A stretch of DNA of 64,000 bases, taken from assembly GCF_030908215.1 (NCBI RefSeq), contig NZ_JAVFJK010000005.1:186001-250000 (forward strand), given 5' to 3'. A model generated the notes under the pieces. The model worked only from the letters and a program-made list of their open reading frames with translations, was not told the origin of the DNA and made no database searches. Positions 14,073 through 52,300 of the stretch are shown piece after piece (the first letter of the stretch is position 1; every line of letters starts with the position of its first letter). The position numbers were made by a program, and so were the translations under genes. Origin of the DNA: Sinomonas sp. ASV486. GTDB lineage: Bacteria; Actinomycetota; Actinomycetes; Actinomycetales; Micrococcaceae.

Positions 14073-14146
14073 CCCCGCACGGCTGAGAGCTGACCCCGCA
14101 TCGGAATCTTCCGATGCGGGGTCACCTTTCGCGGTTGGGGCGTCAG
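14069..14146. terminator. Nested palindromic element between convergent genes (element A)
   Basis: A perfect 16-bp inverted repeat, TGACCCCGCATCGGAA (14091-14106) and its complement (14109-14124), has a 2-nt loop. The left flank repeats CTGACCCCGCA (14069-14079), whose TGA is the stop of the MHS transporter; the right flank GGGGCGTCAG contains the stop of the carboxylase gene. It should act as a bidirectional terminator. The same CTGACCCCGCATC units occur near 25.4 kb and 49.1 kb. Confidence 0.8.
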
Positions 14147-15957
14147 TCCTCGATCGTGGCGATGACCGCGCCCGCAGCCACGGTCTGGCCCGCTTCGGCC
14201 GTCAGGCCCCGCACGGTGCCTGCCTTGTGCGCCGTGAGCGGCTGCTCCATCTTCATGGCCTCCAGCACGACGACGAGATCGCCTTCCGCGACCACGTCGC
14301 CGTCCGCAACAGCGACCTTGACGATCGTTCCCTGCATCGGGGCCGTGAGCGCATCGCCGCTCGCCGCCGCCGTCGCGGGACCGCGGGAGCTGCGGCCCTT
14401 CTTCTTCGCCTTGGGTCCCTTGGCCATGCCCAGCGACAGCCCGGCCGGGATCGTCACCTCGAGGCGCTTGCCGCCCACCTCGACGACGACGCTCTGCCGC
14501 GCCGCGTCGTCGTCCGCGTCCGTCCCGGCGGCGACCGCACCCGCGAAGGGCGGGATCTCGTTGACGAACTCCGTCTCGATCCACCGCGTGTGCACGCTGA
14601 AGGGCCCCTCGGCGGGGGCGAAGGCCGGATCGCGTACCACCGCGGCGTGGAACGGCACGACGGTCGGCATGCCGGTGATCTCGAGCTCGTCGAGGGCTCG
14701 GCGCGAGCGCTCCAGTGCCTGCTGTCGGGTGGCGCCGGAGACGACGAGCTTCGCGAGCATCGAGTCGAAGTTGCCCGAGATGACATCGCCGGCCACCACG
14801 CCGGAGTCGACGCGCACGCCGGGCCCGGTCGGGTAGACGAGCGTCTCGACCGTGCCGGGAGCCGGCATGAAGCCGCGGCCCGCGTCCTCGCCGTTGATGC
14901 GGAACTCGAATGAGTGCCCGCGGACCTCGGGGTCGCCGTACCCGAGCTCCTCGCCGCGCGCGAGGCGGAACTGCTCGCGCACGAGGTCGAGGCCTGTGAC
15001 CTCCTCGGACACGCAGTGCTCGACCTGGAGGCGCGTGTTGACCTCGAGGAAGCTGATGGTGCCGTCCTGGCCGACGAGGAACTCGCACGTGCCCGCGCCG
15101 AGGTAGCCCGCCTCCTTCAGGATGGCCTTCGACGCCGCATACAGGCGGCGGTTCTGCTCTTCGGTGAGGAACGGGGCCGGGGCCTCCTCGACGAGCTTCT
15201 GGTTGCGGCGCTGGAGCGAGCAGTCGCGCGTGGAGACGACGACGACGTTGCCCGCCGCGTCGGCGAGGCACTGGGTCTCGACGTGGCGCGGAGCGTCGAG
15301 GAAGCGTTCGATGAAGCACTCGCCGCGGCCGAAAGCTGCAGTCGCCTCGCGCACCGCCGATTCGTACAGCTCGGGGATCTCCTCGAGCGTCCGGGCGACC
15401 TTGATCCCTCGGCCGCCACCGCCGTAGGCGGCCTTGATCGCCACGGGCAGCCCGAAGTCCTGCGCGAACGCGAGGACCTCGTCCGCCGATTGGACTGGAT
15501 CAGCCGTCCCGGGCACGAGCGGCGCACCGACCTTCTCGGCGATGTGGCGGGCGCGGACCTTGTCGCCGAGTGCCGCGATGGCCTCGGGCGAGGGGCCGAC
15601 CCACGTCAGACCGGCGTCGATGACGCGCTGGGCGAACTCGGCGTTCTCCGAGAGGAACCCGTAGCCCGGGTGGACGGCGTCGGCGCCCGAGCCGCGGGCG
15701 GCGTCGAGGATCTTGTCCATGACGAGATAGGACTCGGCCGCTGTTGTGCCGCCCAGCGCGAACGCCTCGTCGGCGAGGCGGACGTGGAGCGCGTCGCGGT
15801 CCGGCTCTGCATACACGGCGACCGAGGAGATGCCCTCGTCCCGTGCCGCTCGGATGACGCGGACGGCGATCTCTCCGCGGTTGGCGATGAGCACCTTCGT
15901 GATGGGACGGCCGGCGGATTCGTGGGCAGCGCTGAGGGACGCGGCATTGGGAGACAA
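14143..15957 (-). CDS. Acyl-CoA (acetyl/propionyl-CoA) carboxylase alpha chain: biotin carboxylase plus biotin carrier
   Basis: A 604-residue two-domain protein. Residues 20-470 form a biotin carboxylase with [32 protein letters not shown], the ATP-grasp loop [29 protein letters not shown] and [22 protein letters not shown]. The C terminus is a biotinyl domain with EAMKMEQPL; the biotinylated Lys is about 569. It makes carboxybiotin for malonyl- or methylmalonyl-CoA synthesis with a separate beta subunit, probably the one at 25.7 kb. The TTG at 15957 is preferred because GGAG lies 6 nt upstream; an ATG at 16014 would add 19 residues without a ribosome site. A TTGTAGG-N3-CCTACAA palindrome lies 94 bp upstream. 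Confidence 0.94.
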
Positions 15958-16050
15958 GGGCAACTCCGTTCTGTACTCCGGGAAGCCTAGCGCCCCATTG
16001 GTGGGATCGCCCATATTGGTGGCGGATTCCGTGCGTAGACGGCCGATCCG

Positions 16051-16067
16051 TTGTAGGAGACCTACAA
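16051..16067. promoter_or_regulatory. Palindromic operator upstream of the carboxylase alpha gene
   Basis: TTGTAGG-AGA-CCTACAA is a perfect 7-bp-arm inverted repeat. A near-identical copy, CTGTAGG-AAC-CCTACAA (27434-27450), lies upstream of the beta-subunit gene of the same enzyme. Recurrence at two functionally linked genes and nowhere else noticed in the window supports a shared operator. Confidence 0.7.
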
Positions 16068-16096
16068 ATCCGACTCTGCGCTGCGCGGTGAGGCGT

Positions 16097-16777
16097 TCAG
16101 TCCCCGACGGCGGCCGCCCACCAGTCCGTGAGCCGCACCCCGACTCCCGTCAGGAGCATGCGCAAGGTGGAGACGGACAGGCCCACGACGGCGTGCGGGT
16201 CGCCGTCGACGCGCGCAAGGAACGCGCCGCCGAGCCCGTCGATCGTGAACGAGCCCGCGCACTGGAGCGGTTCGCCCGTGGCGACATAGGCCGCGATCTC
16301 CCGTTCGCTCATGCTCGTGAACTCGACCGTCGCAGAGGCGACCTCTCCCGCGCCCGGCGCGCGCGCGGCGTCGTGCGCGCCGTTGTGCGAGGCGGCGCGC
16401 CGGTCAACGAGCCAGTGTCCGGTGTGCAGCACGCCGCCGCGCCCGCTCATGGCCGCGAGGCGCTCGCGGGCAACGTGCGGCGTGTAGGGCTTGCCGAGCG
16501 CCTGCCCGTCGAGCTCGAAGACCGAGTCGCAGCCGAGCACGAGCGCCCCCGCGGCTGCGGGCAGCGCGGCCACGGCCTCGGCCTTCGCCCGCGCGAGGAG
16601 CAGCGAGGTTTCGGCCGGGGTTGCGGTGGGGTGGGCCGCGGCGAGGGCCTCCTCGTCCACGTCGGAGACCAGGACGCGGTGCGGGATTCCGGCTTCCTCG
16701 AGCAGCTTGGTCCTCGCTGGCGACTTCGAGGCGAGGATGAGGCTGGGTGGGGTGGCAGGGGCGGTGTGCACGGTCAC
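16097..16777 (-). CDS. maf: Maf-family nucleotide pyrophosphatase
   Basis: A 226-residue protein that hydrolyses non-canonical or modified nucleoside triphosphates to monophosphates. The signature [19 protein letters not shown] near residue 12, the DVDEE segment, AKAEAV, the catalytic-base region [18 protein letters not shown] and a C-terminal [20 protein letters not shown] all match the family. The start is a GTG at 16777; a second GTG two codons later is possible. A Ser/Gly/Ala-rich insert at about residues 130-145 ([18 protein letters not shown]) is longer than usual. It lies upstream of the carboxylase gene in the same direction, an arrangement common in actinobacteria; the gap of 139 bp with an operator suggests separate control. 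Confidence 0.93.
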
Positions 16778-16843
16778 GCCGCCAAGCGTAGCCCGGGAGC
16801 GGGTGGAGGGGTCTCCCGCAGCCTCCGGCGATTCAGCCCCGGC

Positions 16844-17725
16844 CTAGGAATCGGTTCCAGATCCCGCGTCCTGGGTCGACGTGTGGATCCTTTCGGGCCG
16901 GGCTTCGGCCGCAGACCAGTGCCGCAGGATGAGCTGCGCCGTCTCCTCGGGCACCTCGAGCGGCAGCAGGTACGCGGCGTGGGGAAGGGCGACGGCCGTG
17001 CCGTGTGGAAGGAGGCGTGCCGCCTCCGCGGCCAGTTCCGGTGGCCACGAGTTGTGCTCAGTTCCGGTCGCGAAGACCGTTGGCGCAGTGATCCTCGGCA
17101 GGAGTCCCGTCAAGTCGGGACGACGCACCGCGAGTGACCGTATGGCCCGTCCGAGGAGCCTCGGGTCGGACGCGGTGAGGCATTCCTCGACGTACCCGAC
17201 GGCCTCAGGATCGTGCGCGCGGGTCCGTTCCGAGAGGAGCACACTCACGATGGCCTGCCGCAGCCAGCCCGTCATTCCCATCAGCGCCCTTGCGGGCAGG
17301 ATGGCCGCCTCTTGGAGGCGGAAGGGCAGCGTCGGAGCCTGGACAGGAGCCCCCAGCGTGATGAGCGACCGTATCCTCTCGGGATAGTGGGCGGCGGCGA
17401 GGATGCCCGCATGGCCCCCGAGCGCGTTGCCCACCCAGTCGGCTGGGCCCGGTGGGATGCGCTTTTCGGCGGCCAGACCGTCGAGGATGCCGAGAGCGGC
17501 CGCCGCGATCTCGTGGATCGAGTACGTCCGGCCAGGGTCCCCGCTTGGCCCGTGCCCGGGCGCCGTGATCGCCACGAGCGTCCGTTCTGAGGCGAGGCGG
17601 CCGCGGACCCGGTCCCATGACCGCGAATCGACAAAGAGACTGTGCATGAGGACGGCCGCGGGCCCCACGCCGTCAACCGAGACCTCGAGCCGGCCGATCG
17701 GGGTTTCCATCATTCGGGATTGCAT
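16844..17725 (-). CDS. Alpha/beta-hydrolase-fold protein with an altered nucleophile elbow
   Basis: A 293-residue single-domain protein with a standard fold: PAAVLMHSLFVDSRSW (oxyanion strand), AITAPGHGPSG, and the elbow VGNALGGHAG at about residues 98-107. In relatives the elbow is usually GNSLGG, so the expected serine is alanine 101. A candidate histidine remains in ALPHAAYLLP, while the acid position reads TGTEHNSW. RutD-type hydrolases also carry Ala here, so the protein is not necessarily dead, but ordinary esterase chemistry is unlikely. ATG 17725 or 17710 could be the start; neither has a ribosome site. It is divergent from a TetR gene, and a TTGACAGTGTCAA operator lies on each side of their shared promoter region, so the TetR probably represses it. 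Confidence 0.85.
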   Translation of the reverse strand: MQSRMMETPIGRLEVSVDGVGPAAVLMHSLFVDSRSWDRVRGRLASERTLVAITAPGHGPSGDPGRTYSIHEIAAAALGILDGLAAEKRIPPGPADWVGNALGGHAGILAAAHYPERIRSLITLGAPVQAPTLPFRLQEAAILPARALMGMTGWLRQAIVSVLLSERTRAHDPEAVGYVEECLTASDPRLLGRAIRSLAVRRPDLTGLLPRITAPTVFATGTEHNSWPPELAAEAARLLPHGTAVALPHAAYLLPLEVPEETAQLILRHWSAAEARPERIHTSTQDAGSGTDS

Positions 17726-17739
17726 CGTGGATCACGACC

Positions 17740-17798
17740 TTGACAGTGTCAACTGGGGGTGTGGGTAAGATGATCCTCTTGGGACTTGACAGTGTCAA
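17740..17798. promoter_or_regulatory. Twin TetR operators in a divergent promoter
   Basis: TTGACAGTGTCAA occurs twice as a perfect palindrome, at 17740-17752 and 17786-17798, centres 46 bp apart, between the divergent hydrolase and TetR genes. Each palindrome contains TTGACA on both strands and so can serve as a -35 element; on the minus strand TTGACA (17798-17793) is 17 bp from GATCAT (17775-17770). The flanking TetR protein is the likely ligand-responsive repressor. Confidence 0.85.
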
Positions 17799-17819
17799 CC
17801 AGAGAGGATGGGCACCTCG

Positions 17820-18416
17820 ATGCAACCTGATGCCAGCAGCGTCGGTGGGCTGGACTCCCGGCTCATCGGACTCGCCCTGACGGCGCTCGAGCACACCCCG
17901 CCCGATCGTCTCAGCATCCGCGAGATCGCACGTGCCGCCGGCGTGAGCCATCAGGCGCCGTATGTTCACCTTGGCGGCAAGCGCGGATTCCTTGCGGCCG
18001 TGGCCGGCGTCGGTCTGGAGGCCGCGGCCCAGCGCGCGCGGGCGGCGGTCGACGCCGCCGGGCCGGGCGCCGTCGAACGTCTCCATGCGCTCGTGGACGC
18101 CTACCACGGCTTCGCAACCGACGAGCCGAACCTTCACGACCTGGCCTTCGGGCCGCTCGTTGCCAAGTCCGACCATCCGGACCTGCAGCGCGCCGCGATC
18201 CACTATTGGCGAGTGATGCAGGAGGCCGTGTCCGCCTGCCAGCCGCCGGGGATCGATCCTGGCGAGCTCCTGAGGCGCTGCGCCGCCGCGTGGGGGCTCA
18301 TCCACGGGCTGAGCCGGCTGAGCGCCGTGGGCCAGATCCCCGCGATTGTTCCGGGGGACCTGCACCGGCTGATGCACGACGGAATCGACACGATGCGGAG
18401 AGGCTGGACACCGTAA
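17820..18416 (+). CDS. TetR-family transcriptional regulator
   Basis: A 198-residue repressor. The N-terminal helix-turn-helix is LSIREIARAAGVSHQAPYVHLGGKRGFL (read here in two parts, IREIARAAGVSHQAPYVHL then GGKRGFL) at about residues 30-60; the remainder is the helical ligand-binding domain ending DGIDTMRRGWTP, like TetR_C_33-type domains. An in-frame ATG at 17808 abuts the GAGAGG ribosome site with no spacing, so the ATG at 17820 is preferred. It is divergent from the altered alpha/beta hydrolase and flanked by its twin operators. Ligand unknown. Confidence 0.9.
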   Translation: MQPDASSVGGLDSRLIGLALTALEHTPPDRLSIREIARAAGVSHQAPYVHLGGKRGFLAAVAGVGLEAAAQRARAAVDAAGPGAVERLHALVDAYHGFATDEPNLHDLAFGPLVAKSDHPDLQRAAIHYWRVMQEAVSACQPPGIDPGELLRRCAAAWGLIHGLSRLSAVGQIPAIVPGDLHRLMHDGIDTMRRGWTP

Positions 18417-18424
18417 GGCACGCG

Positions 18425-18490
18425 CTGACCCCATCGGCTGCTCTACTGTCCCGGGACAGTACAGCAGCCGATGGGCGCGGTGCGGGTCAG
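18425..18490. terminator. Long near-perfect palindrome between convergent TetR and MMPL genes (element D)
   Basis: Bases 18430-18452 and 18453-18475 are complementary with a single mismatch, giving a 23-bp stem centred on CCCGGG. Outside it CTGACCC (18425-18431) and GGGTCAG (18484-18490) are also complementary; the latter contains the stop codon of the MMPL gene. Bidirectional terminator, related in its outer bases to elements A and B. Confidence 0.75.
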
Positions 18491-21123
18491 CGCACGCTGT
18501 CCGCCGCAGGCTCCGGTTGGCCCCCGCCGTCGACATGCGCCCCATGAGGCGCCGCCGTCGCGCGCTCGAGCTTGGCGCCTTCGATGTCGAGGTCGGGCAG
18601 GATGCGGTCAAGCCAGCGCGGCAGCCACCACGCCGCCTTGCCGAAGAGGCGCATGATGGCGGGCACGAGCGTCATGCGCACCACGAAAGCGTCCAGGAGC
18701 ACGCCTAGGGCCAGCCCGAAGCCGAGCGGCCGGACCATCGTGAGGTGGCTGAAGATGAAGCCCGCGAACACGCTCACCATGATGATGGCGGCGGCCGTGA
18801 TGACCCGCGCCGCGTGGTGGAACCCGGTCCGGATGGCGAGGTGCGCCTCCTGGCCGTGCGCGTACGACTCCCGGATGCCCGAAGTGATGAACACCTGGTA
18901 GTCCATCGCGAGGCCGAACAGGATGCCTATGAGCAGGATCGGCATGAAGCTCAGGATCGGACCCGGATGGGTGATGTCGAAGACCGGGCCGAGCCAGCCC
19001 CACTGGTACACGGCGACGACTGAGCCGAACGCCGCGCCGAGCGAGAGCAGGAATCCAGCCGTGGCGAGAATCGGCACGAGAAGCGAACGGAACACGAGCA
19101 GCAGCAGGAGGAACGAGAGGCCGACGACGATCGCGAGGTAGACCGGGAGCGCGTCCGCGATCTTGGACGTCACGTCGACGTTGGCCGCGGTCTGGCCCGT
19201 GAGGCCGATCGAGACCCCGGTACGGGACTGGATCGCACTGCCCTGGGACCGCAGGTCGTGGACCACCTGGACGGTGCTCGCGCTGGCGGGGCCCTCAGTG
19301 GGGATCACGCGGAACACGGCTGTGTGATGGTCCGGGCTCAGCGCGAGCGGGACGGCGGCGACCACGCCCGGCACGGCGCGGAGCTGGTCCGCGACGTCGA
19401 GCTGCTTGACCTTCGCCGCCGCGTCGTCGAGGCCCGCCGGGAGTTCGCCGACCACGACGATGGGCCCCGTCATGCCTGCGCCGAAGTACTTGCCCGTGGC
19501 GTCGTAGGCCTTGAAGGACGTGGAGTCCACGGGGTCCGCGCCGCCATCCGGGAGCGCGAGGTGCAGCTGGGACGCCGGGAGCGTGAGCACGCCCAGCAGG
19601 ATCACCGAGGCGACGACGGCGATCCACGGGTGCCGCGTGACCCACGCGCCCCAGCCGCGGTTGGACTTGGCGAGGTCCTCGCGCGCCTCCACGACCCCGT
19701 GCCCGGGCTGGGTGTTCTCCCGGGCAGCCTTGGCCCAGCGCCGCTTGGAGATGATGTGCTTCCCGACGAGGCTCAGGAGTGCTGGAAGCAGTGTGACGGC
19801 GATGATCACGGCCACTGCGACCGTCGCCGCGGCGGCCACGCCCATGACCGCGAGGAACGGCAGCCCGGGCACCACGAGGGCGACGAGTGCGATGACCACG
19901 GTGAGGCCGGCGAATACGACGGCAGTGCCGGACGTACCGATCGCGAGTGCGACGGACTGGCGGGGATCCATGCCGCCGAGCAGCTGGTTGCGGTGCCGGT
20001 TGAGGATGAACAGCGAATAGTCGATGCCAACGGCCAGGCCGAGCATGAGGCCCAGCATCGGCGTCACGGAGCTCATCTCGATCACGCCGGTGAGGGCTAT
20101 GGTCCCGCCAACGCCAACTGCCACGCCGACGAGCGCCATGACGAGTGGCAGGCCGGCCGCGACGAACGCGCCGAGCATGACGACGAGCACGAGTGCCGCG
20201 ACGGTCACGCCGATGGTCTCGCCTGCCCCGAAGATCTGGTTGATGTCCTGGGTGAGCTCCTTGCTCGCGTGCCCCTGCACTCCGTCAACGCTCGAGGCGA
20301 TGTCCTGGATCTGCGTGCGGAGCGAGGTCGGGAGGCTGTCGGTGGACTTCGTGAACTGTACCGGGGCAATGGCCGCGCGATGATCGGAGGAGACGAACCT
20401 CAGGCCTGCCGAGGCATCCGCCTGACGCTGGCCGAGGGCAAGCTCCTGCTTCTTCTGGGCGATCGTCGCGGCACCGTCTGCCGCCTTCTTCGCGCCGGCG
20501 TCGTACTGGGCCTTGCCGGCGTCGTACTGGGCGCGCCCGGCATCGAGCTGTGCCTGCGCGGAGGCGGTCGCTTGGGCGATCGCGGCGGCCGACATTCCCT
20601 GGGCCGCGAGGGCCTGCTTCTGGGCGTCAAGCTGCGCCTGCCCGGCATCGAGCTGTGCCTTCGTCTGGTCGAGCTGGGCCTTGGCGGCATCGAGCTGGGG
20701 CTTGCCGGCGTCGAGCTGGGCCTGCGCCGCGGCGAGCTGCTTCTCGCCGTCGGCGATCTGCGCGCTGGCGCTGTCGAGCTGCGCCTGGGTCGCGAACGGG
20801 TCGGTGACGCTCTGTACGCCGTCGAGCCCCTTGATCTTCTCCAGCGCGGCGCTCAGTTGCTTCTTCTGCGCGTCCGTGAAGGGGGCATCGGGGGATTCGA
20901 AGACGAGCGTCGCGTTGCCGCCCGCGGCGGACGGCAGGTCCGCCTTGAGCTTGTCGAGCATCCGCTGCGTCTCGGTGCCGGGGATCTGGAACGTGTTGGT
21001 CGTGGTGCCGTGGAACGCGGCGGCAGAGCCTCCGACGGCCGCGATGATCACGAGCCAGAGGGCTATGACGAGCCACCTGCGGTCGTAGGCGAACCGCCCG
21101 AGGCGGTAGAGGAGCGAAGCCAT
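18487..21123 (-). CDS. MMPL-family transporter (RND superfamily)
   Basis: An 878-residue membrane protein. Helix 1 (RWLVIALWLVIIAAVGGSAAA) is followed by a large extracytoplasmic domain, then a first bundle (about residues 290-450, with GVAVGVGGTIALTGV and LGLMLGLAVGIDYSLFILNRHR), a second extracytoplasmic domain and a C-terminal bundle with LLIGILFGLAMDYQVFITSGIRE and LGFGLALGVLLDAFVVRMTLVP. Residues about 115-225 are a striking coiled coil built from AQLDAGKAQLDA-type units, not part of the minimal MMPL fold. MMPL proteins export lipids, siderophores or drugs by proton motive force. It lies 82 bp downstream of a TetR gene on the same strand, so it is probably induced by that regulator's ligand. 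Confidence 0.92.
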   Translation of the reverse strand: MASLLYRLGRFAYDRRWLVIALWLVIIAAVGGSAAAFHGTTTNTFQIPGTETQRMLDKLKADLPSAAGGNATLVFESPDAPFTDAQKKQLSAALEKIKGLDGVQSVTDPFATQAQLDSASAQIADGEKQLAAAQAQLDAGKPQLDAAKAQLDQTKAQLDAGQAQLDAQKQALAAQGMSAAAIAQATASAQAQLDAGRAQYDAGKAQYDAGAKKAADGAATIAQKKQELALGQRQADASAGLRFVSSDHRAAIAPVQFTKSTDSLPTSLRTQIQDIASSVDGVQGHASKELTQDINQIFGAGETIGVTVAALVLVVMLGAFVAAGLPLVMALVGVAVGVGGTIALTGVIEMSSVTPMLGLMLGLAVGIDYSLFILNRHRNQLLGGMDPRQSVALAIGTSGTAVVFAGLTVVIALVALVVPGLPFLAVMGVAAAATVAVAVIIAVTLLPALLSLVGKHIISKRRWAKAARENTQPGHGVVEAREDLAKSNRGWGAWVTRHPWIAVVASVILLGVLTLPASQLHLALPDGGADPVDSTSFKAYDATGKYFGAGMTGPIVVVGELPAGLDDAAAKVKQLDVADQLRAVPGVVAAVPLALSPDHHTAVFRVIPTEGPASASTVQVVHDLRSQGSAIQSRTGVSIGLTGQTAANVDVTSKIADALPVYLAIVVGLSFLLLLLVFRSLLVPILATAGFLLSLGAAFGSVVAVYQWGWLGPVFDITHPGPILSFMPILLIGILFGLAMDYQVFITSGIRESYAHGQEAHLAIRTGFHHAARVITAAAIIMVSVFAGFIFSHLTMVRPLGFGLALGVLLDAFVVRMTLVPAIMRLFGKAAWWLPRWLDRILPDLDIEGAKLERATAAPHGAHVDGGGQPEPAADSVR

Positions 21124-21205
21124 GAGGGTCTCTCTCTGGGGTGGGACGGAAGGGCGGAAGGGGTGGGGACGGAAGGCTCAGCCGGTGCGGAACGGTTCAG
21201 CGGGC

Positions 21206-21817
21206 TCAGGGCATGGCGAAGCCGGCCCTGAGGTGGGTGATCGCTTCGCGGAGGAGGGTGCGGAGTCTGGCGAGGGACGACGGCGAGAGGTCGCCGGAGC
21301 GCTCGGCGAGCCAGACCTCGAGTGCGGATTTCCCGCACGCGATGACGCTTGCGGACAGGGCCGCGACGTACAGGTCGCCGAGCGCGGGTTCACGGGCGCG
21401 GATGGCAGCTGCGATCTTCTCGCCGCATTCGTCGAACGCCTGGAGCTGGTAGCGGGTCACCGGGTCGTGGCCCACGGCCAGGAGGAAGGACTGGGCCATG
21501 GGCGCGATGAGGTCGTTGTCCGCGAGGCCGGTGAGCACGTGCAGGGCCGAGTCGAGGAGTGCCTCGTCCGCCGGGCGGCTCGTCAGCTTGCCGAGCGCCG
21601 TGTCGAGGAAGCCGAAGGTGGGCGCGGCAATGGCCTCTTCGACGCTGCTGAAGTAGTTGAAGAAGGTGCGACGGGAGACGCCAGCCGCGTCGGCGAGTTC
21701 CTCGACCGTGAACCCGCCGAGCCCGCGCGCGGTTGCGAGCGAGAGCCCGGCTCCGATGATCGACTCCCGGGTGGCGGCCTTGTTCTGCTCACGGCGGGAC
21801 GGGGTTTCTGTGGTCAC
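21206..21817 (-). CDS. TetR-family regulator of the MMPL exporter
   Basis: A 203-residue protein with an N-terminal helix-turn-helix (TVEELADAAGVSRRTFFNYF at about residues 38-57) and a helical ligand domain. The start is GTG 21817. A -35 TTGCCC, 18-bp spacer and -10 TAGTGT end 6 nt before that GTG, so the mRNA is probably leaderless; the palindrome GTGCAA-CT-TTGCAC lies in the spacer, consistent with autorepression. The MMPL gene follows on the same strand with an 82-bp gap, making a regulator-exporter operon. Confidence 0.9.
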   Translation of the reverse strand: MTTETPSRREQNKAATRESIIGAGLSLATARGLGGFTVEELADAAGVSRRTFFNYFSSVEEAIAAPTFGFLDTALGKLTSRPADEALLDSALHVLTGLADNDLIAPMAQSFLLAVGHDPVTRYQLQAFDECGEKIAAAIRAREPALGDLYVAALSASVIACGKSALEVWLAERSGDLSPSSLARLRTLLREAITHLRAGFAMP

Positions 21818-21823
21818 GTATTT

Positions 21824-21853
21824 ACACTAGGTGCAACTTTGCACTCAGGGCAA
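21824..21853 (-). promoter_or_regulatory. Leaderless promoter with TetR operator
   Basis: On the minus strand TTGCCC (21853-21848) and TAGTGT (21829-21824) are 18 bp apart. GTGCAA-CT-TTGCAC (21831-21844), a perfect 6-bp-arm inverted repeat, occupies the spacer. The GTG start follows 6 nt after the -10. Confidence 0.7.
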
Positions 21854-21886
21854 ATTTTTGCGCGCGGTTTCTCTCAATCAGACAAC

Positions 21887-21946
21887 GCCGCACCCGGACC
21901 TACCGCTGTCTCCGAGGGGAATGCGGCATGCCCAGGTGCGGCGTCA
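21887..21946. terminator. Imperfect inverted repeat downstream of the SDF symporter gene
   Basis: ACGCCGCACCCGG (about 21887-21899) is complementary to CCAGGTGCGGCGT (about 21932-21944) with one mismatch. It lies between the symporter 3' end and the TetR promoter and probably ends transcription from one of them; strength is uncertain. Confidence 0.4.
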
Positions 21947-21993
21947 TGAGTGGCTGCTGCGCGAACGAGGTGACCCCCGTCGGGGGCGGGTGG

Positions 21994-23406
21994 TCAGTGT
22001 GAGGCAGCCAGCTCGCCGTCGTGCGCGTGTCCCTCCGCCGAATCCGACCCAGTGGCCGAATCGTCGTTGAACGGGTCCCCGTGGCGCGGGGCGTTGTAGA
22101 GGTCCAGATCGAGGATGCCCTGGCGCTTGGCGACGATTGCCGGAACGAGTGCCTGGCCCGCGACGTTGACGGCCGTGCGGCCCATGTCCAGGATCGGGTC
22201 GATCGCGAGCAGCAGGCCCACGCCGGCCAGCGGGAGGCCGAGGGTCGAGAGCGTGAGGGTCAGCATGACGACGGCGCCCGTGGTGCCGGCCGTCGCGGCC
22301 GAGCCGAGGACTGAGACGAGCACGATCAGGAGGTACTGGCTGAAGTCCAGCGGGATGCCGAAGAACTGGGCCACGAAGATCGCTGCGACCGCGGGGTAGA
22401 CCGCCGCGCAGCCGTCCATCTTGGTGGTCGCGCCGAGGGGCACGGCGAAGGACGCGTAGCCGGAGGGGACCCCGAGGTTGCGCTCGGTGACGCGCTGTGT
22501 GAGCGGCAGCGTTCCGATCGAGGAGCGGGAGACGAAGCCGAGCTGGACCGCGGGCCAGACCCCGGTGAAGTACTGCTTGACCGAGAGCCCGTGCGACTTG
22601 ACGAGGATCGGGTAGACCACGAAGAGCACGAGGACGAGCCCGGCGTAGATCGCGACGGAGAACTTGCCCAAGGCGCCGATCGTGTCCCAGCCGTAGACGG
22701 CGACCGCGTTGCCGATGAGGCCGATGGTTCCCAGAGGGGCCAGGCGGATGATCCACCACAGCACCTTCTGGATGATCTCGAGGGCCGACCGGTTGAAGGT
22801 CAGGAAGGGCTCCGCCTTCGCACCGATCTTGAGGGCGGCGACCCCTACGGCGATGGCGATGACGAGGATCTGCAGCACGTTGAAGCTCACGCTCGTGGTG
22901 ACGGTGCCGCCGTCGGCAACCGCGGAACTAGCCGACAGGCCGAGGAAGTTCTTCGGGAACAGGCCGACGAGGAACGCCCACCAGTCACCGGTCTTGCCGG
23001 CGTACGTGGCCTGCTGCGTGATGCCGGTGTTGGCACCCGGCTGGAAGAACACGCCGAGGCCGATGCCGATCATGACGGCGATGAACGCGGTGATCGCGAA
23101 CCACAGGAGCGTGTTCCACGCGAGCTTCGCGGCGTTGGAGACCTGGCGCAGGTTGGCGATCGAGCTGACGACTGCTGTGAAGATGAGGGGGACCACAGCG
23201 GTCTGCAGGAGGCTCACATAGCTGCTGCCGATCATGGCGAGGGTCGCGCCGAGGCCGTTCGGATGCGCCTTCGTGCTGCCGGTGTACTTGGCGAGGAGGC
23301 CGAGGGCGAGGCCGATGACGAGGGCGGCGATGATCTGTGGGCCGAATGAGGTGGCCCACTTCGGAAGTCGGCGCTCTGCGCGCTGGGTGCTGGTAGAGGT
23401 GCTCAC
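21994..23406 (-). CDS. Dicarboxylate/amino acid:cation symporter (SDF family)
   Basis: A 470-residue carrier of the DctA/GltP fold. The serine-rich hairpin motif region SRSSIGTLPLTQRV and the transport core FAVPLGATTKMDGCAAVYPAV, then SAATAGTTGAVVMLTLTLSTLGLP and DPILDMGRTAVNVAGQAL, are diagnostic. It imports acidic amino acids or C4-dicarboxylates with Na+ or H+. The C-terminal 35 residues are His/Asp/Ser-rich and cytoplasmic. Start GTG 23406. It stands alone: a strong hairpin at 23471-23516 separates it from the DUF885 gene upstream. Confidence 0.93.
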   Translation of the reverse strand: MSTSTSTQRAERRLPKWATSFGPQIIAALVIGLALGLLAKYTGSTKAHPNGLGATLAMIGSSYVSLLQTAVVPLIFTAVVSSIANLRQVSNAAKLAWNTLLWFAITAFIAVMIGIGLGVFFQPGANTGITQQATYAGKTGDWWAFLVGLFPKNFLGLSASSAVADGGTVTTSVSFNVLQILVIAIAVGVAALKIGAKAEPFLTFNRSALEIIQKVLWWIIRLAPLGTIGLIGNAVAVYGWDTIGALGKFSVAIYAGLVLVLFVVYPILVKSHGLSVKQYFTGVWPAVQLGFVSRSSIGTLPLTQRVTERNLGVPSGYASFAVPLGATTKMDGCAAVYPAVAAIFVAQFFGIPLDFSQYLLIVLVSVLGSAATAGTTGAVVMLTLTLSTLGLPLAGVGLLLAIDPILDMGRTAVNVAGQALVPAIVAKRQGILDLDLYNAPRHGDPFNDDSATGSDSAEGHAHDGELAASH

Positions 23407-23470
23407 CGAGCTACCGTAGGGCGAAGGCTCCTAGCACAGATAGCTTGTGTTTCGCAGTGTGACGTTGAGT

Positions 23471-23516
23471 GTGACGGCGCGGATTCGAGGCTTAGGCCGA
23501 TAATCCGCGCCGTCAC
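23471..23516. terminator. Perfect 15-bp stem between DUF885 and SDF symporter genes
   Basis: GTGACGGCGCGGATT (23471-23485) and its complement (23502-23516) enclose a 16-nt loop. It lies 50 bp after the DUF885 stop codon on the minus strand and isolates the symporter promoter. Confidence 0.75.
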
Positions 23517-23566
23517 GCCACTTTTGTTACGCTATTCCGCGCTCGTCTATGGGATATGTCACCCGC

Positions 23567-25291
23567 TCAGCCCACAAGGGCTCGCCGCAGCGTGTCCAGG
23601 CCTACGGAGCCGAGGTTCAGTGCCCGCATGTGGAACGCCTTGACGTCGAACTCGCGGCCCTCCGCCTCGGCCTCTGCCTTGAGCTCCGCGCGGATCTGCT
23701 CCCAGAGCCGCTGGCCGATCTTGTACGACGGCGCTTGGCCAGGCCAGCCGAGGTAACGGTGGTACTCGAAGTCGAGCTGCCCCTCGGAGATGTCGAGGTT
23801 CTGCTTCAGGAAGTCGTAGCCCTTCTCAGGCGTCCACGTCCCGGAGCCCCAGCGCTCGGGAATCTCGAGGCCGAGGTGCACTCCGATGTCGAAGACGACG
23901 CGTGCCGCGCGCATCCGCTGGCCGTCGAGCATGCCCATGCGGTCTCCCGGGTCGGAGAGGTAGCCGAGCTCGTCCATGAGACGCTCCGCGTAGAGGGCCC
24001 AGCCCTCGCCGTGGCCGGAGACCCAGCAGATGTTCCGGCGCCAGTTGTTGAGGAGCTCGCGGCGGTAGACCGCGGTGGCGCACTGGAGGTGATGGCCGGG
24101 GACTCCTTCGTGGTAGACGGTGCTGGTCTCGGCCCATGTGGTGAACGTGTCCTCGCCCTCGGGTACGGACCACCACATGCGGCCGGGCCGTGAGAAGTCG
24201 TCCGACGGCGCGGTGTAGTAGATGCCGCCGTCCTGGGTCGGAGCGATCATGCACTCGAGCTTGAGCATGGGCTCGGCGATCTCGAAGTGCGTGCCCGCGA
24301 GACCCGCCACGGCCCGGTCGGAGAGGCCCTGCATCCATGCCTTGAGAGCGTCGGTTCCCTTGAGCTGGCGCTCCGGGTCGGCGTTCAGGATCGCCTTGGC
24401 CTCGGCGATCGTGGCGCCGGGCTTGATCTGCTCGGCCACCGCCTCCTGCTCGGCGATGATGCGGTCCAGCTCGGCCACGCCCCACGCGTAGGTCTCCTCG
24501 AGGTCCACGGTGGCGCCGAGGAACCGGCGCGACGCGAGGATGTAGCGCTCGCGTCCCACGGCGTCCTGCTGAGGTGCCTGGGGGAGGAGCTCTTCCTCAA
24601 GGAAGTCGGCGAGCCTGAGGTAGGCGGCGGATGCTGCGGCGCAGCCGTCCGAGACGGCAGAGGCGACGTCGTCGGGGAGGGGAGCGCCGCCGTCGAGCTT
24701 CGCATCCTTGGCCAGCTGCGCGAAGAAGCCGCCCTCTTCGGCGCCGTACTTGCGGCACTGGCCGATCACTGCCTGCACCTGCCGCGCTGCCGCGACCTTG
24801 CCGTCCGCGGCGGCCGAGCGCAGCGAGGCGATGTAGCCCTCGATTGCGGCCGGCACGTTGGCCGCGCGGCCGGCAATATGGCCCCACTGCTCTGAGGTGT
24901 CGGTGGGCATGAGGTCGAAGGTCGCGCGGATGTGCTGGGCGGGGGAATCGATGTTGTTCAGCTCCGCCGCGACCCAGCCGCTCTCGTGACGCTCGACCTC
25001 GAGGCCGAGCCGCTCACGCATCGCGTCCACGGTGACCTCGTCGATCCCGTCTGTGGGAGTCGCCGACTCGAGCCCGGCGAGGGTGTCCCTGGCGAGCGAC
25101 AGGAGCGCGTTGAGGCCGGCGGGGGAGTAGTCCGGGTACTCGGTCTCGTGGCCCGGGTAGCCGAGTTCGGTGGCGAGGGCCGGTTCGAGTTCGAGGAGCT
25201 TCGCGGTGAACTCGTTCGCGATCCCGTCGACGGCGGTGGGCTCGCGGTGGGTCGTGCTGGTCTGAGTGTTCTCGTCAGTGTTCTGCGTCAC
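23567..25291 (-). CDS. DUF885-family protein, probable zinc metallopeptidase
   Basis: A 574-residue soluble protein with no signal peptide. The motif YHEGVPGHHLQ (about residue 395) carries the His/Glu pattern of a gluzincin-type zinc site and defines DUF885 proteins; ICWVSGHGEGWALYAERLMDELGYL downstream (quoted in part: GHGEGWALYAERLMDEL) supplies the third ligand region, and the tail LNLGSVGLDTLRRALVG is also conserved. Biochemical function in the family is poorly defined; peptidase activity is inferred from the motif. GTG 25291 is the likely start. A nested palindrome separates it from the carboxylase operon upstream. Confidence 0.88.
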   Translation of the reverse strand: MTQNTDENTQTSTTHREPTAVDGIANEFTAKLLELEPALATELGYPGHETEYPDYSPAGLNALLSLARDTLAGLESATPTDGIDEVTVDAMRERLGLEVERHESGWVAAELNNIDSPAQHIRATFDLMPTDTSEQWGHIAGRAANVPAAIEGYIASLRSAAADGKVAAARQVQAVIGQCRKYGAEEGGFFAQLAKDAKLDGGAPLPDDVASAVSDGCAAASAAYLRLADFLEEELLPQAPQQDAVGRERYILASRRFLGATVDLEETYAWGVAELDRIIAEQEAVAEQIKPGATIAEAKAILNADPERQLKGTDALKAWMQGLSDRAVAGLAGTHFEIAEPMLKLECMIAPTQDGGIYYTAPSDDFSRPGRMWWSVPEGEDTFTTWAETSTVYHEGVPGHHLQCATAVYRRELLNNWRRNICWVSGHGEGWALYAERLMDELGYLSDPGDRMGMLDGQRMRAARVVFDIGVHLGLEIPERWGSGTWTPEKGYDFLKQNLDISEGQLDFEYHRYLGWPGQAPSYKIGQRLWEQIRAELKAEAEAEGREFDVKAFHMRALNLGSVGLDTLRRALVG

Positions 25292-25383
25292 GTGACGAGC
25301 CTAGCGCGCAGCACCGACATCTGAAAGAACCCGTGCACATCCGTCCCGCGCAATAGCGTTGCGGAGTCATGTCTCACCGAAGA

Positions 25384-25474
25384 GGGGTCAGCTCTCTGGG
25401 ATGCGGGGTCGCGTCTCTGGAAGAGGCATTCGCCACTCGAGACGGGTGACCCCGCATCGTGGGGAGATGACCCC
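25384..25474. repeat. Nested palindromic element downstream of the carboxylase epsilon gene (element C)
   Basis: GATGCGGGGTC (25400-25410) pairs with GACCCCGCATC (25448-25458), continued by GTCTC/GAGAC, and GGGGTCA (25384-25390) pairs with TGACCCC (25468-25474). The units match elements A (14.1 kb) and B (49.1 kb). It lies just after the epsilon-subunit stop codon (25484 on the minus strand) and likely terminates that operon. Confidence 0.7.
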
Positions 25475-25483
25475 ACATTGGGC

Positions 25484-25735
25484 TTACTGCCGGCCGCGGC
25501 GCTGGGCGATCATGTGCCGCGGGCGCAGCGTCGCCTGGCGGATGCGCTCGCGGCGGGTCGGCGCGGCGGCCTCCTCCTGCGCCGGTGGCGCGCTGACCGC
25601 CGCGATCACTGCGGTCAGCGCGGCGAGCTCCTCCGGCGTCGGGTGCCCCTTCGTGACGGCGAAGAGCAGCGGAGCCTCCTCGCCGAGGGACGCCTCGGAA
25701 GCGGACGGCGCGGTGGGAACCGGACCAGTGCTCAC
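25484..25735 (-). CDS. Acyl-CoA carboxylase epsilon subunit
   Basis: An 83-residue protein with an acidic/alanine-rich first third and the conserved segment [20 protein letters not shown], followed by a basic tail ([23 protein letters not shown] in part). This is the small AccE/PccE-type subunit that stabilises and activates actinobacterial carboxyltransferase complexes. The GTG at 25735 overlaps the TGA of the beta-subunit gene in a GTGA, implying coupled translation in fixed ratio. It is easily missed because of its size. Confidence 0.88.
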
Positions 25736-27327
25736 AGCGGGATGTTCCCGTGCTTCTTGGCGGGCATCGACGCGTGCTTGTCGCGCAGAGCGCGGAGCCC
25801 GCGGAGCAGTTGGACCCGGGTCTCCGAGGGGGCGATGACGGCATCGATGTACCCGAGCTCGGCGGCCTGGTAGGGGTTGAGGAGCTCCTCCTCGTAGTCC
25901 CGGATGAGCTCGGCGCGCTTCGCATCGACGTCGCCGGCTGCTGCTCCGGGCTCGGCCGCGACCGCCGCCAGCTCGCGGCGGTACAGGATGTTCACGGCGC
26001 CCTGGGCTCCCATGACGCCGATCTGAGCGGTGGGCCACGCGAAGTTCAGATCCGCCCCGAGCTTCTTCGAGCCCATGACGATGTACGCGCCGCCGTAGGC
26101 CTTGCGGCAGATCACGGTGAGCTTGGGGACCGTGGCCTCGGCGTAGGCGTACAGGAGCTTGGCCCCGCGCCGGATGATCCCCTGGAACTCTTGGTCCTTG
26201 CCCGGCAGGAACCCCGGGACGTCCACGAGCGTGATGATCGGGATGTTGAACGCGTCGCAGTGGCGCACAAACCGCGCGGCCTTTTCCGAGGCCGCGATGT
26301 CCAGCGTCCCGGCGAACTGGATCGGCTGGTTCGCGACGATGCCCACGGTGTGGCCCTCCATGCGCCCGTAGCCGATCATGACGTTCGGCGCGTAGAGGGC
26401 CTGCATCTCGAGGAAGTTGCCGTCGTCGACGATCCCCGCAATCACGGCGCGCATGTCGTAGCCCTGCGTCGCTGAGTCCGGAACGAGCGCGTCGAGCGTA
26501 GCGTCGTCGTCGGTCTCCTCGAGCTCCTGGTCGGCATCCAGCACCGGCGCCTCGACCAGGTTGTTCGATGGGAGGAAGTCGAGGAGCTCGCGGACGAACT
26601 CGATGGCGTCCGACTCGTCGGAGGCGAGGTACGTCGCGGTGCCGGTCGTGGCGTTGTGCTGGCGCGCGCCGCCTAGCGTCTCCATATCCACCTCCTCGCC
26701 CGTGACGGTCTTGATGACGTCCGGACCGGTGATGAACATGTGGCTCGTCTTGTCCACCATCACGATGTAGTCGGTCAGGGCGGGGGAGTACGCCGCGCCC
26801 CCGGCGGACGGGCCCATGATGAGGGAGATCTGGGGTATGACGCCGGAGGCATGGACGTTGTTGCGGAAGATGTCCGCGAACATCGCCAAGGACGCGACGC
26901 CCTCCTGGATGCGCGCGCCGCCGCCGTCGAGGATGCCGACGACGGGGAAGCCGTTGCGGAGCGCGAACTCCTGGACCTTGACGATCTTCTCGCCGTTGAC
27001 CTGGCTGAGCGAGCCGCCGTAGACGGAGAAGTCCTGGCTGTAGACGGCGACCGGGCGGCCGTCCACGGTGCCGTAGCCAGAGACCAGCCCATCCCCGAGC
27101 GGCTTCTTCTTCTCCATGCCGAACGCGGTGGAGCGATGCACGGCCAGCGCGTCGAGCTCGACGAACGAGCCCTCGTCGAGGAGCATGTCGATGCGCTCGC
27201 GGGCCGTGTTCTTGCCGCGGGCGTGCTGCTTCTCGATCGCCTCCTGCCCCGAGGGTGCGAGCGACGCCGCCCGCCGGTCGCGGAAGTCCGCGATCTTGCC
27301 TGCGGTCGTGGTCAGGTCGTGGGTCAC
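25732..27327 (-). CDS. Acyl-CoA (propionyl/acetyl-CoA) carboxylase beta chain, carboxyltransferase
   Basis: A 531-residue carboxyltransferase of the PccB/AccD type. Both crotonase-like halves are intact: [21 protein letters not shown] with [16 protein letters not shown] in the N half, and [54 protein letters not shown] (shown by its ends VDVPGFLPG and [13 protein letters not shown]) in the C half. It transfers carboxyl from biotin on the alpha chain (14.1 kb) to acyl-CoA. GTG 27327 is chosen because GGAG lies 5 nt upstream; a longer frame to 27402 has no ribosome site and runs into the promoter. Followed by the coupled epsilon gene and divergent from birA. Confidence 0.95.
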
Positions 27328-27433
27328 ACTCACTCCAGCTTGTCGGTCCGTGCTCACCCGTGGTGGCTTTCGTAGGTTCCGCACAATCGGCGGAGACGTC
27401 ACCTCAGTCTAGTGAGGCAGGCGTGGCAGGCGT

Positions 27434-27450
27434 CTGTAGGAACCCTACAA
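27434..27450. promoter_or_regulatory. Palindromic operator between the carboxylase beta gene and birA
   Basis: CTGTAGG-AAC-CCTACAA matches the palindrome upstream of the alpha-chain gene (16051-16067) in 6-bp arms TGTAGG/CCTACA plus the outer A. It is 107 bp before the beta gene start (94 bp in the alpha gene). A weaker copy, CGTAGG-N3-CGCACA (27371-27385), lies closer to the gene. Confidence 0.7.
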
Positions 27451-27561
27451 TTTCCGCCGGTGCTCAGGGGCGCGGTGCACGACGGCGCGTCGCGCGCCCG
27501 CCGTCGCGACCGCAAATTCTTGTCCTTCTTCATTTCCTTGGGACCGCCGGGACGTACAGCC

Positions 27562-27596
27562 CTGACCCGGCCGGGCGGCATCGGTACCATGCATCC
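27562..27596 (+). promoter_or_regulatory. Leaderless promoter of birA
   Basis: CTGACC (27562-27567) and TACCAT (27585-27590) are 17 bp apart, and the ATG of birA starts 7 nt after the -10, so transcription should begin at the start codon. No ribosome site is present. Confidence 0.6.
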
Positions 27597-28487
27597 ATGG
27601 ACGATCACGCGCAGCCAGAGCCCCGCGGCCCCCTCGACAGGACGGTTCTGGGCCCGGACCTGGTGCGAGAGGCCGGTCTGTCCCGGCTCGACGTCGTCGA
27701 CGAGATCGACTCGACCAATGCCGAACTCGTGCGCCGGGCCACGACGGACCCCGCGGGCTGGGGCGACCTCTCCGTCCTCGTGGCGGAGCACCAGTCCGCA
27801 GGCCGAGGGCGCCTCCACCGTGCGTGGGACTCACCGGTGGGGGAGTCGGTTGCCGTCTCCATCGTGCTGCGGCCGCACAACCGCGACGGCCGGCCCCTGC
27901 CCACCCAGGGCTATTCGTGGTTTTCGCCCCTCGCCGCCCTCGCGCTCCGTGAGGCGCTCGCGGTGCTGGCCGGCATCGAGGCCTGCCTCAAATGGCCCAA
28001 TGACGTGATCGTGCAGGGCCGGAAGATCTCCGGAATCCTCGCCCAGCTTGCGCCGGGAGCGAACGGCGCCCCGCCCGCCGTCGTCCTCGGAACGGGGATC
28101 AACGTGGCCCAGACCGAGGAGGAGCTGCCCGTGCCCACCGCGACGAGCATGCTGCTCGCGTGCGGCCGGGAGGTGCGGCGGGAGGACATCCTCACCGCGT
28201 ACCTCTCCGCCTTCGCGCGGCGGTACCGGGAGTTCTGCGAGGCCGACGGCGACCCGGAAGTGCCTCTGTCGGGCGGCCGCGGTCTGTGGGGCCAGGTGGA
28301 GGACGCGACGATCACGCTCGGCAAGCGCGTCCGGGTCGAGCTGCCAGGCGGCCAGACGCTCGTGGGCCGCGCGACCGGGCTGGACAGCCACGGCGCCCTG
28401 CGCGTCGTCGAGGAGGACGGCTCGCGCCACTCGGTCGCAGCAGGGGATGTGGTCCACCTGCGCCCCGCCGACGGCGGCTATGCGTAG
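27597..28487 (+). CDS. birA: Biotin-[acetyl-CoA-carboxylase] ligase
   Basis: A 296-residue ligase that activates biotin with ATP and attaches it to the carrier lysine. It has STNAE, the adenylate loop AEHQSAGRGRLHRAWDSP (GRGR motif), LKWPNDVIVQGRKISGILAQ and VVLGTGINVAQT, then an SH3-like C-terminal domain (LGKRVRVELPGGQTLVGRATG). It lacks the N-terminal DNA-binding domain of E. coli BirA, so it is a monofunctional ligase and cannot itself be the repressor of the carboxylase genes. Divergent from the beta-subunit gene with the shared operator between them, which links enzyme and modifying ligase. Stop overlaps the next gene by 8 bp. Confidence 0.95.
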   Translation: MDDHAQPEPRGPLDRTVLGPDLVREAGLSRLDVVDEIDSTNAELVRRATTDPAGWGDLSVLVAEHQSAGRGRLHRAWDSPVGESVAVSIVLRPHNRDGRPLPTQGYSWFSPLAALALREALAVLAGIEACLKWPNDVIVQGRKISGILAQLAPGANGAPPAVVLGTGINVAQTEEELPVPTATSMLLACGREVRREDILTAYLSAFARRYREFCEADGDPEVPLSGGRGLWGQVEDATITLGKRVRVELPGGQTLVGRATGLDSHGALRVVEEDGSRHSVAAGDVVHLRPADGGYA

Positions 28488-51634: not shown

Positions 51635-52300
51635 TCAGCGCGAGTAGTCCTCGGCGTCGGCCGTCTCCTCGTCGTCCGCGGGCACGGTCACCCGGACGGG
51701 CATGGCCTGTGCGGCCTTGCGGCGCCGGCGGATGACCTCGATGCCGATCGGTATGACGGACGCGGCGACGATGAGCACGGACAGGATGTCGATGTTCTTC
51801 GCGATGAACTCGACGTGCCCGAGCCAGACGCCGAGCAGCGTGACTGAAATGGACCATGCCACGCCGCCGAGCACGTTCCAGCCGAGGAACTTGCGGTACG
51901 GGTAGTGGGCCATGCCGGCGGCGAGCGGCACGTAGGTGCGCACGATCGGCACGAACCGGGCCAGCACGAGGGCCCGGCCACCGTACCGGCCGAAGAACTC
52001 GTCGGCGCTGTCGAGATAGCTGAGCTTGAGGATCCTTGCGTCTTCGCGGAACCAGCGCTTGCCCACGAACCGTCCGATGAGGTAGCCGGCCTGATCGCCC
52101 GCGACGGCCGCGATCGCCACCACGAGCATGAGCACGGGAAGGCTCAGTCCGAGCTGGGCATGGAGGAGTCCTACGGTGAACAGGAGGGAGTCGCCCGGCA
52201 GGAACGGGAAGAGCAGGCCGGACTCGATGAACACGATGAGCGCGACGACGCCCAGGACCCAGGGTCCGGCGCCGACGAGGAGGGCAGTGGGATCAAGCAT
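51635..52300 (-). CDS. DedA-family membrane protein (VTT domain)
   Basis: A 221-residue protein with the DedA hallmarks FIESGLLFPFLPGDSLLF, IAAVAGDQAGYLIGRFVGKR, ARFVPIVRTYVPLAAGMAHY and GGVAWSISVTLLGVWLGH. DedA proteins are lipid scramblases or undecaprenyl-phosphate flippases needed for envelope stability. It lies between a two-component system and a PAP2 phosphatase, a grouping that suggests envelope lipid recycling. The preceding PAP2 gene ends 7 bp upstream, so the two are co-transcribed. Confidence 0.93.
   Translation of the reverse strand: MLDPTALLVGAGPWVLGVVALIVFIESGLLFPFLPGDSLLFTVGLLHAQLGLSLPVLMLVVAIAAVAGDQAGYLIGRFVGKRWFREDARILKLSYLDSADEFFGRYGGRALVLARFVPIVRTYVPLAAGMAHYPYRKFLGWNVLGGVAWSISVTLLGVWLGHVEFIAKNIDILSVLIVAASVIPIGIEVIRRRRKAAQAMPVRVTVPADDEETADAEDYSR

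Follow-up and report, generated by a model that had tools for sequence, protein, structure and literature searches.

Candidate operators of a PucR-type FasR before the unlinked acyl-CoA carboxylase genes of Sinomonas and related Micrococcaceae

The closest described systems to the one considered here, a set of short palindromes before the acyl-CoA carboxylase genes accA and accD of Sinomonas sp. ASV486, are those of two PucR-type regulators, FasR of Streptomyces coelicolor (SCO2386) and MabR of mycobacteria (Rv2242 / MSMEG_4324). The palindromes lie in a stretch of 64,000 nucleotides (contig NZ_JAVFJK010000005.1, positions 186,001 to 250,000 of the forward strand), called the window, to which coordinates without a contig prefix refer. 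S. coelicolor FasR is described as an activator of fabDHPF (PMC7324645); its operator is placed near position -67 of the fab promoter, and the repeats that it recognises are called highly similar to those of MabR, whose recognition sequence is given as TTTTGT(N)9ACAAAA (PMC5541348). MabR carries the same two Pfam domains as the Sinomonas protein discussed below, has a globin-like N domain and occurs as dimers and tetramers, and the mycobacterial fasII operon under its control includes accD6 (PMC11617747). A mycobacterial namesake of FasR also controls fatty-acid genes (PMC5541348). How bacteria match the level of carboxylase to fatty-acid synthesis is poorly known; regulators specific to acyl-CoA carboxylase (ACCase) genes have been called elusive, and the LysR-type AccR is reported for a different ACCase gene (PMC11602165).

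The Sinomonas palindromes are very likely operators of a PucR-type FasR that, judging from sequence comparison, would also govern fabD, fasR and some bioY genes. For this reading the sites, their conservation and spacing and their co-occurrence with FasR were computed here, while the operator spacing, the activator role and the sensing of acyl-CoA come from the literature. On the + strand of the window the palindromes read TTGTAGGAGACCTACAA (16051-16067) and CTGTAGGAACCCTACAA (27434-27450); both are exact, at the positions that the initial annotation had given. The genes that they precede lie on the - strand, on which these candidate boxes, each of 17 bp, read TTGTAGGTCTCCTACAA and TTGTAGGGTTCCTACAG, respectively. 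They encode an accA-type alpha chain, with biotin carboxylase and biotin carrier (14143-15957), and an accD-type beta chain, the carboxyltransferase (25732-27327), both assigned from Pfam matches and open reading frames. Aligned upstream sequences place the likely starts at TTG 15957 and GTG 27327, at distances of 93 and 106 bases from the respective boxes. With up to two mismatches to TGTAGGNNNCCTACA allowed, the window holds three matches against 0.39 expected, a number reached in 1 of 100 shuffles; the third, at 52161 with two mismatches, may be due to chance.

The form of the boxes points to the FasR/MabR type of operator. The accA palindrome is an exact TTGT-N9-ACAA, the sole such match in the window, and the accD palindrome has this form with one end base changed; the match was judged on TTGT-N9-ACAA and did not require the flanking TT/AA of the MabR operator. 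In the whole genome (4,278,912 bases) TGTAGGNNNCCTACA occurs with at most one mismatch only at the two acc sites, as compared with 8 matches for a reversed control pattern, and thus the motif is not randomly scattered, a check that had been proposed at the outset. At up to two mismatches a looser 17-mer, TTGTAGNNNNNCTACAA, matches 30 places in the genome, of which six precede genes of one pathway: accA, accD, fabD (C16:260380), fasR (C16:261693) and two bioY genes (C13:55879-56475 and C5:3197-3784, BioY by Pfam PF02632), whose sites at C13:55748 and C5:3891 each have two mismatches and lie ~110 bp upstream of the gene.

A gene flanked by these C16 sites and directly upstream of fabD (C16:260424-261659) codes for a PucR-type protein with GGDEF_2 (PF17853) and HTH_30 (PF13556) domains. 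The protein has a MabR-like globin-like N-terminal domain, matches both solved MabR domains (E-values of 7.7e-55 and 5e-21) and shares with MabR the residues NTVRYRL in the helix-turn-helix (HTH). Because of its sequence and its place next to fabD, it is taken to be the FasR/MabR orthologue. The motif, which had not been recognised as a known BioQ, BirA or FasR site, is spaced like the MabR operator and precedes both fasR and the fabD operon beside this regulator gene. By FasR is understood here the PucR-type protein of Streptomyces and not the TetR-type namesake of mycobacteria and corynebacteria, which the initial annotation may have had in mind. Since one operator is common to two unlinked carboxylase loci, the earlier proposal of a separate regulator most likely holds as far as the carboxylase is concerned; its other half, that biotin ligase is co-ordinated with the carboxylase, is not conserved. 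Operator spacing, the boxes at fabD and fasR and the lack of boxes in a genus without FasR (g3, below) make it very probable that the regulator of the acc boxes is FasR, matching malonyl-CoA supply to the type II fatty-acid synthase (FAS II).

The comparison with the described systems shows both kinship and divergence. As in S. coelicolor, the gene stands next to fabD; unlike S. coelicolor FasR, for which fabDHPF is the described target, the Sinomonas protein has boxes at the unlinked accA, accD and bioY as well. With MabR the system has in common the two solved domains and the TTGT-N9-ACAA frame, but MabR reaches a carboxylase gene through its own operon, whereas the Sinomonas carboxylase genes are separate loci with boxes of their own, and in contrast to the MabR operator the inner AG...CT of the box is largely fixed in Micrococcaceae. 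The regulator and the operator type are known; what appears to be new is a regulon that takes in acc and bioY genes at unlinked loci. Among the literature matches listed, which mostly leave subscription journals uncovered, none deals with FasR boxes of acc or bioY genes, or with such boxes in any Micrococcaceae. CrtR was considered as a regulator and set aside, TGTAGG occurring in the accessible part of its source only in oligonucleotide lists (PMC5401885).

TetR-family FasR and BioQ control acc and biotin genes in corynebacteria; both belong to another protein family than the PucR-type FasR and have other operators. The window holds two TetR genes (17808-18416 on the + strand and 21206-21817 on the - strand), and their physical nearness to accA, together with the corynebacterial precedent of a TetR-type FasR acting on acc genes, could suggest that one of them regulates the carboxylase loci. 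This is very improbable: the NCBIfam matches of neither protein reach the cut-off, neither gene has a box of its own, given that TGTAGGNNNCCTACA with at most one mismatch is found only at the acc sites, and across families the box tracks the PucR-type gene.

Conservation was followed in relatives from a sampled family (f1), regarded as Micrococcaceae since the named relatives belong mostly to Sinomonas, Arthrobacter and Pseudarthrobacter. The named genomes used are the best 80 of 300 accD relatives; a second set consists of one genome for each of 31 FasR-positive genera, with a box counted at up to two mismatches. The accD box lies upstream in 80/80 named loci, exactly in 28 and with one mismatch in 52, and among the genera the box is present at accA in 30/31 and at accD in 26/31, so that the proposed check for conservation before orthologous carboxylase genes was passed. 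In a first batch of acc windows (27 + 27) the box occurs in 52/54, as against 1/54 for the reversed pattern, and dinucleotide shuffles of these windows reach a box in 0.4% (accD) and 0.2% (accA) of cases. For the reversed control, which covered the first 27 FasR-positive windows of each kind and left out 8 later ones, the counts are 0/27 at accD, 1/27 at accA and 0/27 at bioY. At the regulator locus the box before fabD is found in 30/30 fasR loci of the family, without any mismatch in 25, and that before fasR in 23/30 at up to two mismatches and 27/30 at up to three, several genera counting twice among these 30 loci. Although patterns of this sort are not uncommon, as the 8 one-mismatch genome matches of the reversed control show, a conserved placement, at every named accD locus and in nearly all acc windows, refutes an origin of the palindromes by chance, the probability of which is negligible.

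The box also goes with the regulator. FasR is found in 58/61 family genomes, and the three that lack it all belong to genus g3, where no box (0/3 each) precedes accA, accD, bioY or fabD; in one set, the fabD box occurs in 7/7 FasR-positive genomes (six from the family and one other) vs 0/7 FasR-negative ones, g3 included. Beyond the family, a FasR match was obtained in 128/149 genomes sampled from the order (E-values up to 1e-25) and in 163/197 sampled from the class (E-values up to 1e-20), and a box with up to two mismatches stands by fasR or fabD in 32/48 fasR loci and 17/19 families. FasR-negative genomes outside the family have a box at neither accD (0/6) nor accA (0/6). The search for acc boxes outside the family took in 35 genomes, of which 6 gave no accD match and 6 no accA match at the cut-off; four FasR-negative genomes of family f3 are among those without acc matches and are thus unusable for this comparison. 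Two matches, that of G081 (L378) and the second of G195 (L379), were left out of the accA count as likely paralogues.

Several observations weigh against the boxes as FasR operators, or against their generality. The 30 genome places matched at up to two mismatches are no excess over the 198 of the reversed control, and most other genomes scanned show no such excess either, so that the case rests on the location of the sites. Five FasR-positive genera (G010, G013, G014, G016 and G021) have no good accD box and one (G012) has no accA box, and the box at bioY occurs in only 8/27 FasR-positive loci, counted from the best BioY match per genome with four further FasR-positive genera left out. The joint loss of FasR and box in the family is one event in one genus, and a genome of that genus (G033) has four sites with at most one mismatch, though none before accA, accD, bioY or fabD. 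There is no box at fasR or fabD in families f19 (0/8) and f38 (0/1). Outside the family acc boxes are few among FasR-positive genomes (accD 6/23, accA 4/22), and given this patchy distribution the link to the acc genes characterises the family and some neighbouring groups rather than the class as a whole. To these points are added two from promoter geometry: box-to--10 spacing differs between promoters, so that a single activation geometry does not fit them all, and the bioY promoter of the present genome (L259) lacks the 22-nt spacing to a -10 described next.

At accD the predicted -10, TAGACT (27406-27411, - strand), begins 22 nt after the box, exactly so in 80/80 named loci; the promoter has no recognisable -35 consensus. 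A TAnnnT sequence stands at the same distance in 23/25 genera at accD and in 6/8 at bioY. With this spacing the centre of the accD box falls near -43, ~43 bp upstream of the transcription start predicted from the -10, which would be the position of a class II activator. The accA box is centred farther off, ~82 bp upstream of the start predicted from a -10, TAGGCT (15984-15989, - strand), that recurs in the accA upstream alignment; a TA-type -10 is present there in 22/27 rows by a loose test. FasR might, on the other hand, act by repression, its binding obstructing RNA polymerase. The overlap of box and -35 region at accD and several bioY genes and the closeness of the box to the -10 at fasR speak for this, as does the initial description of MabR, which was that of a repressor (PMC11617747, PMC5541348). 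Repression is unlikely, if far from implausible: S. coelicolor FasR and M. smegmatis MabR are both described as activators (PMC7324645, PMC5541348), and an accD promoter without a -35 consensus is what an activator-dependent promoter would look like.

At fasR itself the box-to--10 spacing varies among rows. In many of these (L101-L130) a -10 of the TATGCT type is followed by ATG within ~10 bases, and on this evidence the fasR transcript may be leaderless. In the same rows two blocks, AGCTTGGT and AACACC, are conserved in the fabD leader, downstream of the FasR box and ahead of the ribosome site of the gene; they may represent a variant promoter or a stem-loop.

Both carboxylase genes have a weak second box downstream of the main one. 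That of accD, TTGTGCGGAACCTACGA (27370-27386, - strand), lies 64 bp from the main box and inside the predicted 5' untranslated region; it is the degenerate third copy noted earlier at 27371-27385, which is thus real. That of accA, ATGGGCGATCCCACCAA (15998-16014, - strand), lies 53 bp downstream. When the best secondary site at 30-120 bp is taken in each genus, the offset at accD is 64 in 14/25 and 65 in 3 more, at accA 53-54 in 20/27 and at bioY 65 in 4/8, these genera being related and the counts accordingly not independent. Mean scores at the second-box offsets reach z values over all offsets of 7.1 at accD, 7.2 at accA (at 54) and 6.0 at bioY. The two offset classes are ~10.5 bp, or one helical turn, apart, and the offsets are near whole turns. 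Since tetramers are reported for MabR, bridging of weak and strong boxes by a FasR tetramer is a fair guess.

In the mechanism that may be proposed, in which actual binding, the sign of regulation, tetramer bridging and the ligand are inferred, a FasR dimer would sit on TTGTAG-N5-CTACAA before accA, accD, fabD and fasR, and before bioY in Sinomonas and some other genera. The production of malonyl-CoA and the elongation of fatty acids would then rise or fall together, and so would the import of biotin wherever bioY has a box. At accD, and in several genera at bioY, the box would replace the -35, ~31 bp upstream of the -10, a place from which an activator could touch RNA polymerase directly. The weak boxes ~5 or 6 helical turns downstream might allow a FasR tetramer to hold both sites. 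The signal, as reported for MabR, would probably be a fatty-acid intermediate, a long acyl-CoA or some other. That all of this forms a single supply-chain circuit that begins with biotin import, passes through the carboxylase and ends in FAS II, with paired boxes at acc and bioY promoters bridged by a tetramer and graded control of malonyl-CoA, is a tentative idea that is possible without being the likelier outcome; if it is true, malonyl-CoA supply would be graded rather than on-off.

FasR control in Micrococcaceae thus seems to have spread to carbon supply and, in some members, to biotin uptake. With a candidate regulator and exact sites named in soil bacteria, the matching of carboxylase to fatty-acid synthesis becomes a testable question there. 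The case is one in which boxes acquired at unlinked loci have rewired a regulon; g3, without regulator or boxes, and other families in which acc boxes are rare or absent serve as comparison, and it may help to engineer lipid or malonyl-CoA supply in relatives of Arthrobacter.

The link to biotin has two sides. The divergent neighbour of accD in the window is birA, a biotin ligase gene (27597-28487, + strand) that starts 146 bases from the accD box and is a putative target at most. By Pfam the protein has only BPL_LplA_LipB (PF03099) and BPL_C (PF02237), so that it does lack a DNA-binding domain as first noted; the absence of any HTH match in Pfam speaks against a biotin operon repressor of the BirA type. 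The accD site had also been thought to serve birA, which conservation does not bear out. In 76/80 named loci the divergent gene upstream of accD encodes a short-chain dehydrogenase/reductase (SDR), and conserved control of birA by the box was rejected; birA was found upstream of accD in 75 named loci, but only 3 of these have its start within ~240 bp of the accD match. The single-genus set is mixed, several genera having no SDR match and BirA nearest. In the window no SDR gene is present within 27328-27596, probably through local loss, and birA is directly divergent from accD; control of birA by the box is possible in this genome, unsupported as it is by conservation. It is at bioY instead of birA, and in part of the family, that a biotin link shows.

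That link raises the alternative of a biotin-sensing repressor, a BioQ-like TetR protein or another, which would bind the boxes at acc, birA and bioY, the fatty-acid genes being secondary. The 8 bioY boxes among FasR-positive genera, the two-mismatch sites before both bioY copies of the present genome and the biotin carried by the alpha chain are all consistent with it, but it remains improbable. The box is most constant at fabD (30/30), which uses no biotin, it is missing where fasR is missing, and 19/27 FasR-positive bioY loci are without it. The operator of BioQ, moreover, is of the TGAAC-N3-GTTCA type, and the box differs from it in sequence.

A different palindrome, GTTAC-N4..8-GTAAC, occurs within 400 bp upstream of the accD box in 72/80 named loci; in the 8 rows inspected it stands just before the SDR start, close to the likely promoter of that gene.

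Elsewhere in the genome, a one-mismatch site at C12:183710 falls inside a hisC-like aminotransferase frame and recurs in one relative; it was taken as coding-sequence chance and rejected. The test of genome sites by reading frame, based on G+C at third codon positions (GC3), is crude and assigns even the boxes of accA and fasR to extended frames. A seventh place, C13:45720 (TTGTCGGAAACCTCCAA), has a fabG1-like gene on one side and an SDR gene on the other and is possibly a further FasR target. In another locus (L180) a one-mismatch site is found near a FabG-like frame.

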